The notes below the pieces were generated by a model. That model was given only the letters and a program-made list of their open reading frames with translations. It had not been told where the DNA came from and did not search any database. A program made the translations under genes and the position numbers. Below, one piece after another: positions 39,175 through 46,017 of a stretch of 64,000 bases of DNA (positions are counted from its first letter, which is position 1; each line of letters opens with the position of its first letter). The stretch is from Terrabacter tumescens (GTDB lineage: Bacteria; Actinomycetota; Actinomycetes; Actinomycetales; Dermatophilaceae), in NCBI RefSeq assembly GCF_014646815.1, contig NZ_BMNZ01000001.1, positions 310,001-374,000 on the forward strand, in the 5' to 3' direction.

Positions 39175-39594
39175 TCAGGCGCCGGACTGCCGCGCCGTGG
39201 CCCGCGGCCGGGGCCGTCCATCCGGTCGGGCGTCGATCTCCCTGCGCAGCCGGGTGTTCTCGTCCTGCAGGTCGAGCAGCATGCCGACGCCGGTGAGGTT
39301 GACGCCGGTCGCCATGAGCTCGGCGATCCGCCGCAGCCTCGTCACGTCGTTGGCGCTGTAGCGGCGTGTGCCTCCACTCGTGCGGTCCGGGGTCAGCAGG
39401 CCTCGTGACTCGTAGAGCCTCAGGCTCTGCGCCTCGAGGCCGACGAGCTCGGCGGCCACGGTGATGCCGTACACGCCACGATCGAGGTCGTCCTCAGGGT
39501 CGTTCGCAGGGTCGTTCGCGGGGTCGTTCGCAGGGTCGTTCGCAGGGGCGTTCGCGGGGTCGTTGGCGGGGTCGGAATCGGGTCGGCTCGGCAC
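39175..39594 (-). CDS. MerR-family regulator, HspR-like
   Basis: A 139-residue protein. After a low-complexity N-terminus of DPAN repeats, a MerR helix-turn-helix follows (YGITVAAELVGLEAQSLRLYESRGLLTPDRTSGGTRRYSANDV) and a short coiled coil (LLDLQDENTRLRREI). This is the HspR pattern, a repressor of chaperone genes. It faces hsp20 across an AT-rich operator-like stretch. GTG 39594 is chosen for its AGGAGG 9 nt upstream; an upstream GTG frame reaching 39666 would overlap the promoter. Confidence 0.82.
   Translation of the reverse strand: MPSRPDSDPANDPANAPANDPANDPANDPANDPEDDLDRGVYGITVAAELVGLEAQSLRLYESRGLLTPDRTSGGTRRYSANDVTRLRRIAELMATGVNLTGVGMLLDLQDENTRLRREIDARPDGRPRPRATARQSGA
39496..39567. repeat. 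Six 12-bp tandem repeats inside the HspR-like gene
   Basis: Units of the form AGGGTCGTTCGC at 39496, 39508, 39520, 39532, 39544 and 39556, with one or two base differences. They encode six DPAN/DPAN-like repeats before the DNA-binding domain. A seventh partial unit begins at 39568. The unit keeps the reading frame if copies are gained or lost. Confidence 0.85.
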
Positions 39595-39654
39595 GTCCGC
39601 TCGCCTCCTCTCCTGGGATCCCGTGAGGGGTCCGACGTTCCTCGCCGCGACCTC

Positions 39655-39707
39655 TTGCACGATCATCTCGTGGGTGCTACAAAAAATCTATAGCGCATGC
39701 CATAGAT
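39655..39707 (+). promoter_or_regulatory. hsp20 promoter with inverted-repeat operator
   Basis: TTGCAC (39655-39660) and TACAAA (39678-39683) are 17 bp apart. They are followed by ATCTAT-N10-ATAGAT (39686-39707), a 6-bp inverted repeat in the only AT-rich stretch nearby. The repeat covers the expected start of transcription, so a protein bound there would block the gene. It does not match the HspR box CTTGAGT-N7-ACTCAAG, so the regulator's site may differ. Confidence 0.5.
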
Positions 39708-39765
39708 CGCAACGGGCGATCATGGTCACCGTGGAGCATCACCTGACACGATGGAGGTGAAGACG

Positions 39766-40206
39766 ATGCTGATGCGCACCGACCCCTTCCGAGAGTCCTT
39801 CCGAGACCTGGACCGCGTGGCCCAGCTCGCCTTCGGGGCGGCCGGCACCCTCGCCCGACCCTCGGCCATGCCGATGGACGCCTGGCGCGACGGTGACACC
39901 TTCCACGTCGAGCTCGACCTGCCGGGCGTCGACCCGCGCTCGATCGACCTCGACGTCGAGCGCAACGTCGTGACCGTCAAGGCCGAGCGGCCGCCGCGGG
40001 CGAGCGACGCGGACCTCATCGCCGCCGAGCGTCCGAGGGGCGTCTTCAGCCGGCAGCTCGTGCTCGGCGACAGCCTCGACACCGAGCGCATCGAGGCGAG
40101 CTACGACGCAGGAGTCCTCTCCCTGTCGATCCCTGTGGCGGAGAAGGCCAAGCCGCGCAAGATCGCCATCGCCCAGCAGGACGAGCGTCAGGCCATCACG
40201 AGCTGA
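39766..40206 (+). CDS. Small heat-shock protein, Hsp20/alpha-crystallin family
   Basis: A 146-residue chaperone that binds unfolding proteins. The alpha-crystallin domain runs from about residue 40 to 130: [23 protein letters not shown], a middle [13 protein letters not shown], and the closing [21 protein letters not shown]. The start is ATG 39766, 8 nt after GGAGG; the GTG-frame ATG at 39751 overlaps that Shine-Dalgarno. Its divergent neighbour is the HspR-like regulator, so it is likely heat or stress induced. Confidence 0.92.
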
Positions 40207-40210
40207 GGCG

Positions 40211-40558
40211 GTGGCGGTCGTGGTCACGCCGATCCTCCCTGACGACCCCTTCCCTGCCGTCGAGCAGGCCGTCGAGGAGGCCGTCGACGAGCTCTTCGTC
40301 GAGCTGATGTGCGCCGACGAGGAGCTGCTGGCCGCCGAGTTCGAGGCGATCGTCGCCGCCGGATGGCCGGAGCAGCCCCGGGTGCCTCCGCCGCGCCGGG
40401 GCGAGCCGACCGAACCGGGCAAGGATCCGGACGGGCGCGTCGTCTCCGAGGCGGTCCGGGTCGCGAGTCGTTCATGGCGTATGCCGTCACGCCAGCCGGA
40501 GCGGGAGCGCTCGCCCCCGCTCGGGCGAGGACCAGCCCGGACGGGTCACCTGAGCTGA
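40211..40558 (+). CDS. Small acidic protein of unknown function
   Basis: A 115-residue protein beginning 4 nt after hsp20. The first half is acidic and helical, with LMCADEELLAAEFEAIVAAGW, a pattern I have seen in small actinobacterial proteins without a named function. The second half is Pro/Arg rich and disordered. Likely cotranscribed with hsp20 and ended by the strong hairpin at 40600-40640. Confidence 0.55.
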   Translation: MAVVVTPILPDDPFPAVEQAVEEAVDELFVELMCADEELLAAEFEAIVAAGWPEQPRVPPPRRGEPTEPGKDPDGRVVSEAVRVASRSWRMPSRQPERERSPPLGRGPARTGHLS

Positions 40559-40599
40559 AGGAGGAGGTGGGTTCACCGAGGTACAGCCACGACACGCAG

Positions 40600-40640
40600 G
40601 TCGCGTCCTCGGGTGGGTTCGTGCCACCCGAGGACGCGAC
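40600..40640. terminator. Perfect 17-bp hairpin between convergent genes
   Basis: GTCGCGTCCTCGGGTGG (40600-40616) pairs without mismatch to CCACCCGAGGACGCGAC (40624-40640) around a 7-nt loop. It sits between the hsp20 operon and the cysteine-rich gene and can stop transcription from both sides. Confidence 0.8.
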
Positions 40641-40655
40641 GTGTGCGCGCGAGGG

Positions 40656-40796
40656 TCAGGCTGCGTGGCTGCAGCGCGAGCAGGTGCAGTCCTCGCAGCT
40701 GCACGAGTCGCACGTGCAGCCTTCAGGGCAGTTGGCGCAGTCGCACGGGCTGTCGGGCTCGGTCTCGATGGGGATGGGTGGGATCTGTCCGCTCAC
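40656..40796 (-). CDS. Metallothionein-like cysteine-rich peptide (46 residues)
   Basis: GTG 40796 opens a 46-codon gene with GAAGGAG 6 nt upstream. Residues 1-17 are proline and acid rich (MSGQIPPIPIETEPDS). From residue 18 there are 10 cysteines in 25 residues in a regular C-x-C-x2-C pattern (CDCANCPEGCTC, then SCSCEDCTC), plus one histidine at 44 and no aromatic residue. That is the profile of a metallothionein, which would bind Cu, Zn or Cd in the cytoplasm. It lies 41 nt after the hemerythrin gene on the same strand and ends before a strong hairpin. I know no exact family for it; MymT of mycobacteria is comparable in size. Confidence 0.8.
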   Translation of the reverse strand: MSGQIPPIPIETEPDSPCDCANCPEGCTCDSCSCEDCTCSRCSHAA

Positions 40797-40837
40797 AGGG
40801 TGCTCCTTCTCTCGATTGCTGGGTATCGCCGGTGTCG

Positions 40838-41335
40838 TCAGGAGACGACGGCGTCGATGGCCTTCTTCATGGCGCTCGGCTGCTCCGGACGTCGCGGAGC
40901 CTTCTTCTTCGCCGCCAGCAGCTCCTCACCGAGCTCCTGCAGCTGCTTGCGCCCGAGCCCCTCTCGGACCTTCGGGAACCAGTCCTGCTCCTCCTCCTGC
41001 ATGTGGTGCTCGACGTTCTCGATGAGGACCGTCGTCTTGGCGTCGAAGCGCTCGTCCGTCGCGTCCATGGTGGAGAGCTCGACGCAGAGCACGTCCGCGA
41101 CGTGGTGCTCCTCGTACGACTCGAGCACGTCGTCCTCGAGGTCGGGCAGCAGCTCACGGACGCGTGGGTACATCACCTCGTTCTCGATGTAGGTGTGCAC
41201 GGTCAGCAGCTCGAGGATCGTGTCGACGATCCCCTGCTTCTGCACGGGCGTCAGGTCGGCCTTGCGAAACGCTCGGAACTGCTTGCGGACCTCCTGGTGG
41301 TCCTCCTTGAGCAGGACGATGGCGTCCGTCGACAT
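40838..41335 (-). CDS. Hemerythrin HHE-domain protein
   Basis: A 165-residue helical protein with the histidine and glutamate ligands of a di-iron hemerythrin fold (LLKEDHQEVRKQF, VHTYIENEVMYP, ESYEEHHVADVL, ENVEHHMQEEEQDWFP). Such proteins bind or sense O2, NO or peroxide, or store iron. A basic C-terminal tail follows (AAKKKAPRRPEQPSAMKK). ATG 41335 has GGAGGAG upstream. It is followed closely by the metallothionein-like gene, so the pair may serve metal or oxidative stress. Confidence 0.9.
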   Translation of the reverse strand: MSTDAIVLLKEDHQEVRKQFRAFRKADLTPVQKQGIVDTILELLTVHTYIENEVMYPRVRELLPDLEDDVLESYEEHHVADVLCVELSTMDATDERFDAKTTVLIENVEHHMQEEEQDWFPKVREGLGRKQLQELGEELLAAKKKAPRRPEQPSAMKKAIDAVVS

Positions 41336-41585
41336 GTGGGCTCCTCCGGGTGTGGCTCATCTGGTGTCGGGGCGCCGGTGGCTGCCCCTCGTGGTTCTCG
41401 TACCCATCCCGCCCGACGGCCAACGAGCTCCCTCTGCGCGCGAGCCCGTCCGTGGACCGCACCGGGTGCGTGGCGTGACCGGCATGAGGTCCCCGGTTGG
41501 GTCGGCGCGTGGTGGGTACCCGTCAGGCACCCGGCAGCGGGACCGGGCGCCCCTCGGGGGCGTCCGTCGACGAGGAGGAGTCTGC

Positions 41586-42380
41586 GTGTCGTTCGAACCC
41601 ACTGAGGCAGGACCCGGCCGTGCAACCGCCGAACCAGCAGGCCCGCAGGTCGCGGAGCTCGTGCTCGTGCGCCACGGCGAGAGCGTCGGCAACGTCGCCG
41701 ACGACGATGCTCGCCGACGCGGCGCCGGTCGCCTGGAGCTCGACACCCGGGACCCTGACACCCCGCTGTCCGAGCGCGGAGAACGACAGGCGCAGGTGCT
41801 CGCCCGCCATGTGGCGACGGGTGAAGCCGACGCACCCGAGGTGGTGCTCTCCTCGCCGTACGCCAGGGCTGCCTCGACGGCGCACGTCGTCGCCTCGGCG
41901 GTCGGGCTCGACCCCGTCCTCGACGAGCGGCTGCGCGAGCGTGACCTCGGCATCCTCGACGGGCTCACCGGCGTCGGGATCCGCGAGACCCTGCCGGACG
42001 AGGCGGAGCGGCGGGCCCGTCTGGGGAAGTTCTACTACCGGCCGCCGGGAGGTGAGAGCTGGACCGACGTCGCGCTGCGGGTGCGCCACGTCGTCCGCGA
42101 CCTCGCACAGGTCTACCCGGACCGCCGGGTGTGGGTCTTCACCCACCAGGCGGTGATCATGAGCTTCCGGCTCGTGCTCGAGGGGCTCGACGAGCAGACC
42201 CTCCTCGACGTCGACCGCAACGAGCCGCTGGGCAACTGCTCGCTGACCCGCTACCGGCGCCGGGACGGCGCGAGCCTCGAGCTCGTCAGCTTCGCAGACA
42301 CCCGGCACCTCGACGTCTCGGCGGTGGAGAACACCCGTGAGCCCACGCCCGAGCCCGCCGTAGAACGAGGGAGCGCCTGA
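41586..42380 (+). CDS. Histidine phosphatase family protein
   Basis: A 264-residue phosphoglycerate-mutase-like enzyme. LVLVRHGESVGN gives the phospho-accepting histidine at residue 30; SSPYARAASTA and the second histidine in VWVFTHQAVIMSFR complete the site, and RERDLGILDGLTG holds the catalytic glutamate region. The substrate is open. GTG 41586 has GGAGGAG upstream. It lies 1 nt before the NAD(P)HX dehydratase gene and both are probably one operon. Confidence 0.87.
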   Translation: MSFEPTEAGPGRATAEPAGPQVAELVLVRHGESVGNVADDDARRRGAGRLELDTRDPDTPLSERGERQAQVLARHVATGEADAPEVVLSSPYARAASTAHVVASAVGLDPVLDERLRERDLGILDGLTGVGIRETLPDEAERRARLGKFYYRPPGGESWTDVALRVRHVVRDLAQVYPDRRVWVFTHQAVIMSFRLVLEGLDEQTLLDVDRNEPLGNCSLTRYRRRDGASLELVSFADTRHLDVSAVENTREPTPEPAVERGSA

Positions 42381-44296: not shown

Positions 44297-44418
44297 CGCC
44301 GGGCTCCCCGGTGTCGTCGGATCCATGCAGGCGACGTGCCCGGTGCGGGCGTGTCGCAAACGCCCGGTTAGCCCCCGAGGGCAGCGGGTACGGCACGACC
44401 ACCGGACGAGAGGACATC

Positions 44419-46017
44419 GTGACGACGACGGATGCCGTGGTCATCGGCAGCGGGCCCAACGGGCTCGTGGCCGCCAACCTGCTCGTGGACGCCGGCTGGT
44501 CGGTCGTCGTCCTCGAGGAGCAGCAGACTCCCGGGGGCGCCGTCCGAAGCGACGACTCGGTCGCGCCGGGCCACGTCCACGACACCTTCAGCTCGTTCTA
44601 CCCCCTCGCCGCCGGGTCCCCGACGATCCGTGGTCTCGGCCTCGAGGAGCACGGCCTCGAATGGGTCCAGGCGCCCTCCGTGCTCGGCCACGCCTTCCCC
44701 GACGGTCGGTGGGGCGTGCTCCACCGCGACCGGGGAGCGACCGCTGCGGCACTCGACGAGCAGGCCCCCGGCGACGGCGACAGCTGGCTGGCGCTCTGCG
44801 ACACCTGGGACCGCGTCGGGGACGACCTCATCCGCTGCCTGCTCAGCCCGTTCCCTCCCGTGCGCGGGGGTGCGGGGCTGGGGCGCCAGGTCCTGAGGCC
44901 CGGGGGCATGGAGCTGGTGCGCGAGATGCTCATGCCTGCCCGCAGCCTGACGGAGAAGCTCTTCCGCGGCGAGGCCGCCCGCATGCTCGTCGCGGGCAAC
45001 TCGGCCCACGCCGACATCGGGCTCGAGTCGCCCGGCTCAGCCGCCATGGGACTCCTGCTCGCCCTGCTCGGGCAGACCGTGGGCTTCCCGGTCCCGCGTG
45101 GCGGTGCCGGCGAGCTCTCGGCGGCCATGGTCCGTCGCCTCGAGTCCCGCGGAGGCGAGATGTGCCTCGGGGAACGAGCCGAGGGCGTACGCGTGCAGGA
45201 CGGTCGCGCGGTCGCCGTGCGGACTGCGTCCCGTGAGCTCTCCGTCCGACGGGCCGTCCTCGCCGACGTGTCAGCGCCTGCGCTCTACGGCGGCCTCGTG
45301 CCGTGGGACCAGCTTCCGACCAGGCTGCGGCATCGCATGGGCCGTTTCGAGTGGGACCCCTCGACGGTCAAGGTGGACTGGGCCCTCGACGCCGCCGTCC
45401 CGTGGGCGGGTGCGCCCGAGCTGTCACCGGGCACCGTGCACATCGCGGACTCGCTGGACGGACTGAGCCTCTCGGGGAGCCAGGTCGCCGCCGGACTCGT
45501 GCCGGAGCAGCCGTTCCTCCTCGTCGGCCAGATGGGCGTCGCCGACCCAAGCCGGGTGCCGTTGGGGCACGAGGCCCTGTGGGCGTACACCCATGTGCCA
45601 CAACGAGTTCGGGGTGATGCGGGGGCCGGCAGGTCCGACCTGCGCGGGGTGCGTGGCACCTGGGACGAGGCGGACCTAGACGCGATGGCCGAGCGCATGG
45701 AGCAGCGCATCGAGAGCCGCGCCCCGGGCTTCCGGGACCGCATCATCGCCCGTCGGGTGCTCGGTCCGCGCGAGCTCGAGGCCCGCGACGCCAATCTCGT
45801 GGGAGGCGCCATCAACGGTGGCACCGCCGGTCTGCACCAGCAGCTCGTCTTCCGCCCCGTCGCGGGTTCCGGACGGCCCGAGACACCGGTCAAGGGGCTC
45901 TACCTCGCATCGGCCTCGGCCCATCCCGGCGGCGGCGTGCACGGCGCGTGCGGCGCCAATGCCGCCCGAGCCGCCCTGTGGCAACACAAGATCCGATCCC
46001 CCTGGAGGCGCACATGA
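44419..46017 (+). CDS. Phytoene-desaturase-like FAD oxidoreductase
   Basis: A 532-residue amine-oxidase/CrtI-type flavoprotein. The FAD loop AVVIGSGPNGLVAANLLVDAGW and EEQQTPGGAVRSD are at the N-terminus, and the C-terminal SASAHPGGGVHGACGANAARAAL closes the FAD site. No crtB, crtE or other carotenoid gene is near, so it probably acts on another lipid-like substrate. GTG 44419 follows GAGAGGA. It overlaps the SRPBCC gene by 4 nt, and that partner could bind the substrate. Confidence 0.85.
   Translation: MTTTDAVVIGSGPNGLVAANLLVDAGWSVVVLEEQQTPGGAVRSDDSVAPGHVHDTFSSFYPLAAGSPTIRGLGLEEHGLEWVQAPSVLGHAFPDGRWGVLHRDRGATAAALDEQAPGDGDSWLALCDTWDRVGDDLIRCLLSPFPPVRGGAGLGRQVLRPGGMELVREMLMPARSLTEKLFRGEAARMLVAGNSAHADIGLESPGSAAMGLLLALLGQTVGFPVPRGGAGELSAAMVRRLESRGGEMCLGERAEGVRVQDGRAVAVRTASRELSVRRAVLADVSAPALYGGLVPWDQLPTRLRHRMGRFEWDPSTVKVDWALDAAVPWAGAPELSPGTVHIADSLDGLSLSGSQVAAGLVPEQPFLLVGQMGVADPSRVPLGHEALWAYTHVPQRVRGDAGAGRSDLRGVRGTWDEADLDAMAERMEQRIESRAPGFRDRIIARRVLGPRELEARDANLVGGAINGGTAGLHQQLVFRPVAGSGRPETPVKGLYLASASAHPGGGVHGACGANAARAALWQHKIRSPWRRT

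Follow-up and report, generated by a model that had tools for sequence, protein, structure and literature searches.

A stand-alone metallothionein-like protein of Terrabacter tumescens, probably a Zn/Cd-binding form of a wider actinobacterial domain under general-stress control

Introduction

The described systems closest to the one analyzed here are the SmtA-type metallothioneins, exemplified by SmtA of Synechococcus and the metallothioneins of Pseudomonas and represented in Pfam by PF02069. The metal ligand set of SmtA is Cys9His2. Four zinc ions are reported for SmtA, and smtB-smtA is described as a divergent arrangement, in the portions of PMC7387436 drawn on here. Regulators of the alpha5 class of the SmtB/ArsR family carry the signature DxHx10Hx2E, and the metals ascribed to this class are Zn, Cu, Co and Ni; a cyanobacterial metallothionein is reported to be under the negative control of one such regulator, AzuR (PMC8790569, in the excerpts used).

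In Mycobacterium smegmatis the SigF consensus is given as GTTT-N14-19-GGGTA in the available sections of PMC4694148, where two hemerythrin genes that were both reduced in a sigF mutant, MSMEG_2415 and MSMEG_6212, are listed with GTTG-N15-GGGTA at 61 nt and GTTT-N15-GGGTA at 51 nt, respectively. The hemerythrin-like protein MsmHr of M. smegmatis is reported, in the excerpted text of PMC4295536, to repress sigF via one of its promoters, and the link between hemerythrin and SigF may therefore be reciprocal.

Here we describe a small gene in a window of 64,000 nt, the whole stretch of T. tumescens DNA that was analyzed, from a genome (G000) of 4.7 Mb in 23 contigs. An earlier note on this DNA had proposed a metallothionein-like gene that forms a two-gene unit with a hemerythrin gene, joining di-iron sensing with thiol buffering of Cu, Zn or NO. 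The comparisons reported below suggest that the product is probably a Zn/Cd-binding metallothionein, the stand-alone form of a wider actinobacterial domain, placed under general-stress control.

Results

The gene is located on the minus strand at 40656..40796, a 46-codon open reading frame that starts with GTG at 40796 and has its stop codon ending at 40656. A ribosome-binding site, GAAGGAG, was read directly in the sequence at 40803..40809 (minus strand), 6 nt 5' of the GTG. The deduced product, with the GTG read as methionine, is MSGQIPPIPIETEPDSPCDCANCPEGCTCDSCSCEDCTCSRCSHAA. The 46 residues include ten cysteines within a stretch of 25 (positions 18, 20, 23, 27, 29, 32, 34, 37, 39 and 42), arranged in the frame C-x-C-x2-C-x3-C-x-C-x2-C-x-C-x2-C-x-C-x2-C-x-H, and lack phenylalanine, tryptophan and tyrosine. 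The small size, very high cysteine content, conserved CxC and CxxC motifs and absence of aromatic residues are those of the metallothionein class. The GTG-started gene with its GAAGGAG, the regular C-x-C-x2-C series of ten cysteines in 25 residues and the lack of aromatics had been described in the earlier note, together with the hemerythrin gene 41 nt upstream on the same strand and a perfect 17-bp hairpin downstream, and each is borne out by the sequence.

The open reading frame at 40796..40656 is a real gene. The seven closest copies comprise that of G029 and six from the genus, and dN/dS among them was 0.06-0.38 in every one of the 21 pairs. Over 45 codons, 13 sites varied at codon position 1, 12 at position 2 and 35 at position 3. 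All cysteines are retained in the closest copies although 7 of the 10 cysteine columns switch between TGC and TGT. The 14 more divergent pairs, formed by the seven closest copies with two Humibacillus copies, gave dN/dS of about 0.3 to 1.0, an estimate that is poor because of the short length and the few usable synonymous sites. The cysteine-dense stretch is not a product of chance, since the maximum elsewhere in a six-frame translation of the window with the gene removed was 8 Cys per 25 residues and 10 first-order Markov simulations of the window gave maxima of 5-6. A cysteine frame that is not conserved, or a lack of coding constraint, had been named beforehand as grounds for abandoning the metallothionein reading; all cysteines of the frame are kept in the seven closest copies, and the dN/dS of 0.06-0.38 among these indicates constraint.

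Ten cysteines and one histidine are invariant in an alignment of 18 rows that includes both stand-alone and fused proteins, the exact frame being found again in both; the rows were chosen, leaving out proteins of other spacing, and within them His44, which had escaped the earlier note, is as invariant as the cysteines. The protein of M. lylae has x4 in place of x3, and one cysteine of the frame is missing in doubled repeats and in two further matches. Nine cysteines and the histidine are still invariant in 15 rows that take in proteins of other spacing. Two tandem metallothionein domains per open reading frame are present in L066, L067 and L068, with repeat units that lack one cysteine of the stand-alone frame.

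The nearest named relatives identified via the gene are strains of Terrabacter, Terracoccus, Intrasporangium and Humibacillus. Within the genus the gene was matched in 6 of 9 genomes, the source genome counted; among the three genomes with no match, G002 has a completeness of 74%. At the level of the family, 24 of 186 genomes matched the first profile at E≤0.001. The A4 profile, which takes in the doubled-domain rows, was applied to two samples at E≤1e-4. It matched 14 of 396 genomes in the order sample, 10 of which belong to other families, and 14 of 394 in the class sample, 13 of which belong to other orders. The A3 profile matched only the source genome over the phylum and order samples (1/396, 1/297), a result that reflects the limit of the profile and sample and not absence, because A4 matched 14/396 and 14/394; on ten selected genomes A3 recovered 7 of 7 known positives and matched 0 of 3 same-genus negatives. 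No second domain match was obtained in the source genome at E≤0.001, and a weak one (E 0.37) was dropped for want of the cysteine frame. Two of the 16 initial matches (L016 and L017) also were dropped as lacking the frame; from their appearance we take them to be RsgA-type GTPases. Three pattern matches on viral contigs were rejected by eye as translated repetitive DNA.

The distant copies, found across the class, consist of one or two domains at the C-terminal end of His-rich proteins in which the core resembles HGxxCGHxxVxHxDHVDYxHDGHxHREHxGHYDEC. The simplest history would be that the stand-alone form was cut from the fused form. A search of plasmids with the 46-residue protein, low-complexity filter on, returned no match, and the His-rich form returned a single protein, from Rhodococcus and labelled 'zinc transporter permease', with an alignment of 17 residues in the His-rich segment (E 0.5). 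On the Rhodococcus plasmid NZ_CP089607.1 (L078, 1693-1851 and 2947-3105) a 'hypothetical protein' and a 52-residue 'zinc transporter permease' form a pair that occurs twice in succession; the match of the 52-residue protein is restricted to the His-rich half of a fused metallothionein.

The surroundings of the domain were compared at 30 loci, comprising 23 genomes outside the family (order and class samples) and seven found earlier (G057, G049, G027, G156, G105, G157 and M. lylae); G157 is counted despite a His-rich part that is out of frame with the domain, and G853 and G737 look like one gene counted twice. A same-strand ArsR-like gene adjoins the domain gene in 25 of the 30, and D-x-H-x10-H-x2-E, which was not part of the search pattern, is present in 25 of those 25. 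The ArsR-like gene overlaps the candidate start of the open reading frame for the His-rich/metallothionein protein in 22 of 24 measured cases, by exactly 4 nt in 13, and the two others are separated by gaps of 1 nt and 119 nt. With the patterns used, no ArsR-like gene was found in 5 of the 30, all fused or doubled loci (G622, G724, G759, G957 and G996). The actinobacterial arrangement apparently parallels smtB-smtA, the metallothionein in this case giving no match to PF02069. The conserved Cys/His frame and the relatives fused to His-rich segments beside SmtB-type genes lend good support to the description of the window protein as metallothionein-like. Inspection by eye revealed no sensor gene next to the window gene, and the genome gave no second domain match at E≤0.001, so that a metal function of the window protein would be assigned by homology.

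None of the Pfam or NCBIfam models reached its cut-off for the window protein or four relatives. The PF02069 model gave no match for the window protein (E≤1), the four relatives (E≤10) or the source genome (E≤1); as a control, it gave matches in 4 of 14 control genomes, one of which is Synechococcus elongatus, and a single match exceeded the cut-off. Comparison with solved structures yielded nothing beyond chance (2mrb, E 0.13 with the A3 profile). No paper on this family was recognized in the open-access literature among the matches listed, judged by titles and abstract openings, a result that falls short of proof that the family is unpublished.

The neighboring gene encodes an HHE hemerythrin of 165 aa (40838..41335, minus strand), as indicated by the match to Pfam PF01814 (E 4e-14) and by His/Glu ligand motifs in which H13, H47, E51, H77, H111 and E115 were assigned by eye as putative di-iron ligands. 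The best NCBIfam match of the hemerythrin is NF053874, 'PA2171 family ribosome-binding persister protein', with 77.4 bits against a cut-off of 190; a distant link to ribosome binding or dormancy is possible. A search of 14 genomes recovered orthologs of the hemerythrin in 12, the match in G107 spanning 61 residues only. Both genes are present in 10 genomes and adjacent in four, with gaps of 41 nt in G000, 47 nt in G006, 46 nt in G008 and 181 nt in G029, where the peptide gene has its own GGGTAC. The genes are apart in G003, G004, G007, G024, G107 and G121 (G107 judged by contigs only). The hemerythrin gene was found with no peptide gene detected in two genomes of the same genus, G001 and G002, and the peptide gene with no hemerythrin gene detected in G041, which is 81% complete. 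Beyond the hemerythrin gene, only a few flanking genes recur around the metallothionein copies. The hemerythrin-metallothionein pairing is local, though real, and hemerythrin was dropped as a general partner because of the adjacency in only four of the 10 genomes. Conservation beside hemerythrin genes, which the earlier note had proposed as a check, thus holds in four genomes and fails in the six in which the genes are apart.

A SigF/SigB-type promoter motif that had gone unreported, GTTG-N15-GGGTAC, lies before the hemerythrin gene at 41400..41424 (minus strand), with GGGTAC starting 70 nt upstream of the ATG. The motif fits the SigF/SigB criterion GTTT-N14-19-GGGTA with one base off in the -35 box. 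A divergent SigF-type motif, GTTG-N14-GGGTAC, is found at 41496..41519 (plus strand) before a histidine phosphatase gene (GTG at 41586); the two motifs point apart within about 120 bp, and the plus-strand GGGTAC sits in the palindrome GGGTACCC. A third GTT..GGGTAC site, at 44367-44391, precedes by 27 nt the GTG at 44419 of an open reading frame whose product is FAD enzyme-like by eye. The pattern GTT-N14..17-GGGTAY thus occurs at 3 sites in the window, each before the start of an open reading frame, compared with 1.96 expected from mono-nucleotide shuffles and 0.4 from a second-order Markov model; GGGTAY alone is rarer in the window than expected (14 vs 23.9).

Upstream boxes were examined for 17 metallothionein copies, three directly behind hemerythrin and 14 others. 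No GGGTAY of their own was present within 260 nt of the three. Among the 14, GGGTAY was found 48-62 nt upstream in six and GGGTAG at 46-63 nt (by eye) in three more, giving GGGTA in nine; GGGTA was not found upstream of the remaining five. A clear GTTT-like -35 box was recognized by eye in some copies only, as GTGT-N15 in G029 and GTTT-N16 in G058. The chance of at least 6 of 14 copies with GGGTAY in a 31-nt span is ~5e-10, a value that assumes an independence violated by kinship and that refers to a span chosen post hoc. Eleven hemerythrin orthologs were compared likewise; at 49-74 nt, 9 have GGGTA and 7 have GGGTAY. The SigBFG model gave five matches in the source genome, four at 207-220 bits (best 219.5) and one at 133, the top-ranking ones being located at C3:508195-508863 and C5:106257-106925; these constitute weak evidence, since all are below the cut-off of 234.35 and the model also matches 10 of 14 control genomes, and show only that the genome has sigma-70-type factors of about the SigBFG kind.

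These results bear on the possibility of a dedicated hemerythrin-metallothionein pair, in which the peptide would serve the di-iron protein as a buffer of thiols, NO or Cu. Such a pair is consistent with the close spacing in four genomes, three with gaps of 41-47 nt and one with 181 nt, and with stress-type promoter motifs on both genes, but is unlikely given that the genes are apart in 6 of the 10 genomes with both (G107 by contigs only), that hemerythrin occurs with no peptide detected in G001 and G002 and the reverse in the incomplete G041, and that elsewhere in the class the domain is accompanied by a gene for an SmtB-type sensor. The two-gene unit exists at this locus but is adjacent in only 4 of the 10 genomes, and the proposed partnership of di-iron sensing with thiol buffering is not established in view of that frequency and of hemerythrin with no peptide gene detected in two same-genus genomes. 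Shared stress-sigma control would account better for the pairing because of the limited adjacency and the promoter motifs before both genes.

Downstream of the metallothionein gene, a perfect 17-bp hairpin with a 7-nt loop and no T run occupies 40600..40640 (minus strand; arms 40600-40616 and 40624-40640), between the metallothionein stop and a possible convergent open reading frame ending at 40558. The fold of 40590-40660 was -47.9 kcal/mol with a z of -7.07. The hairpin is likely a terminator, although a T run is lacking and this reading is therefore unproven. About 1 kb from the metallothionein gene, at 39175-40206, an open reading frame for a MerR-type regulator faces an HSP20 gene (identified by Pfam) in head-to-head orientation; the regulator has no cysteine, is HspR-like by eye and contains a repeated NDPA segment close to its beginning.

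Discussion

For the reading favored here, a Zn/Cd-binding metallothionein under general-stress control, the ten cysteines and one histidine would, by analogy with SmtA, hold some four divalent ions per protein in a cluster, Zn first and Cd or Pb if present, and the protein would buffer or sequester metal. The usual setting of the domain would be the C-terminus of a His-rich protein encoded beside an SmtB-type sensor, and in Terrabacter and its kin the domain would stand apart from the sensor under a SigF/SigB-type general-stress promoter. The promoter may be either that of the metallothionein gene itself or, at this locus, that of the hemerythrin gene, the transcript here probably being shared with hemerythrin. 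As for the ligands offered in the earlier note, Cu, Zn or NO, nothing points to NO, Cu is possible, and the sensor motif beside the relatives suggests Zn first.

Thiolate clusters release zinc on oxidation, so that redox and metal roles can coexist. A redox switch or thiol store in which the cysteines form disulfides under oxidative stress, with the metal incidental, is nevertheless very unlikely; the SigF-type motif and the hemerythrin neighbor do suggest oxidative stress, but the fixed Cys/His spacing, the invariant histidine and the sensor genes beside the relatives fit metal clusters better. The least probable reading is a copper metallothionein, as MymT is considered, for although CxC-rich proteins also bind Cu(I) and the metals ascribed to alpha5 sensors include Cu, the invariant histidine and SmtB-type motif would fit Zn better and no metallothionein model scored above cut-off, hence no named family favors Cu.

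Taken more broadly, the results tentatively suggest a class-wide actinobacterial system in which an SmtB-type sensor is translationally coupled to a His-rich protein with one or two metallothionein domains. The Terrabacter group may have excised the domain on its own and transferred it from metal to SigF-type stress control, with zinc buffering joining the oxidative-stress response alongside di-iron hemerythrin; we regard this scenario as possible and hold it with less than even confidence. The shift from a metal sensor to a stress sigma factor, if true, would mean that for the bacterium the buffering of zinc and thiols belongs to survival under general stress. As of 2020 only two bacterial metallothioneins had been studied for their biological function, according to the portions of PMC7387436 drawn on here. 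A metallothionein family that occurs in many actinobacterial families, with a probable sensor gene of its own alongside, would provide a further lineage and a clear case for testing.

The window protein resembles the SmtA-type metallothioneins in being small and rich in cysteine with histidine, and its eleven potential ligands equal the number in SmtA. The tie of smtA to smtB also has a counterpart in the tie of the domain's relatives to an SmtB-type regulator gene. Unlike the SmtA type, the window protein has no PF02069 match, no aromatic residues and a CxC-x2-C series, and the stand-alone form lies behind a stress-type promoter motif. Furthermore, smtB and smtA are divergent whereas the actinobacterial sensor genes and the genes of the relatives are on the same strand and mostly overlap. 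MymT of mycobacteria is likewise an actinobacterial metallothionein but, compared by description only and as far as the excerpted text goes, is a copper metallothionein with a motif absent from other bacterial metallothioneins. The repetition of CxC and CxxC is shared with eukaryotic metallothioneins (PF12749; CD7 metallothionein-2A, 2mrb); the weak scores, of PF12749 against the relative in G007 (E 0.016, 15.6 of 22 bits) and of 2mrb, are likely compositional because they are below threshold, and common descent is unsupported.

The hemerythrin gene is comparable to MSMEG_2415 and MSMEG_6212, each encoding an HHE hemerythrin behind GTT(G/T)-N15-GGGTA. The distance is 70 nt in the window, as against 61 nt for MSMEG_2415 and 51 nt for MSMEG_6212, and the motif in the window has the sequence and spacing listed for MSMEG_2415 in the sections of PMC4694148 available; unlike here, an adjacent metallothionein gene is not mentioned in those sections. 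Overall, a bacterial metallothionein is a known kind of protein, and the sequence family, the His-rich fusion and the stress wiring look new within the scope that could be searched.
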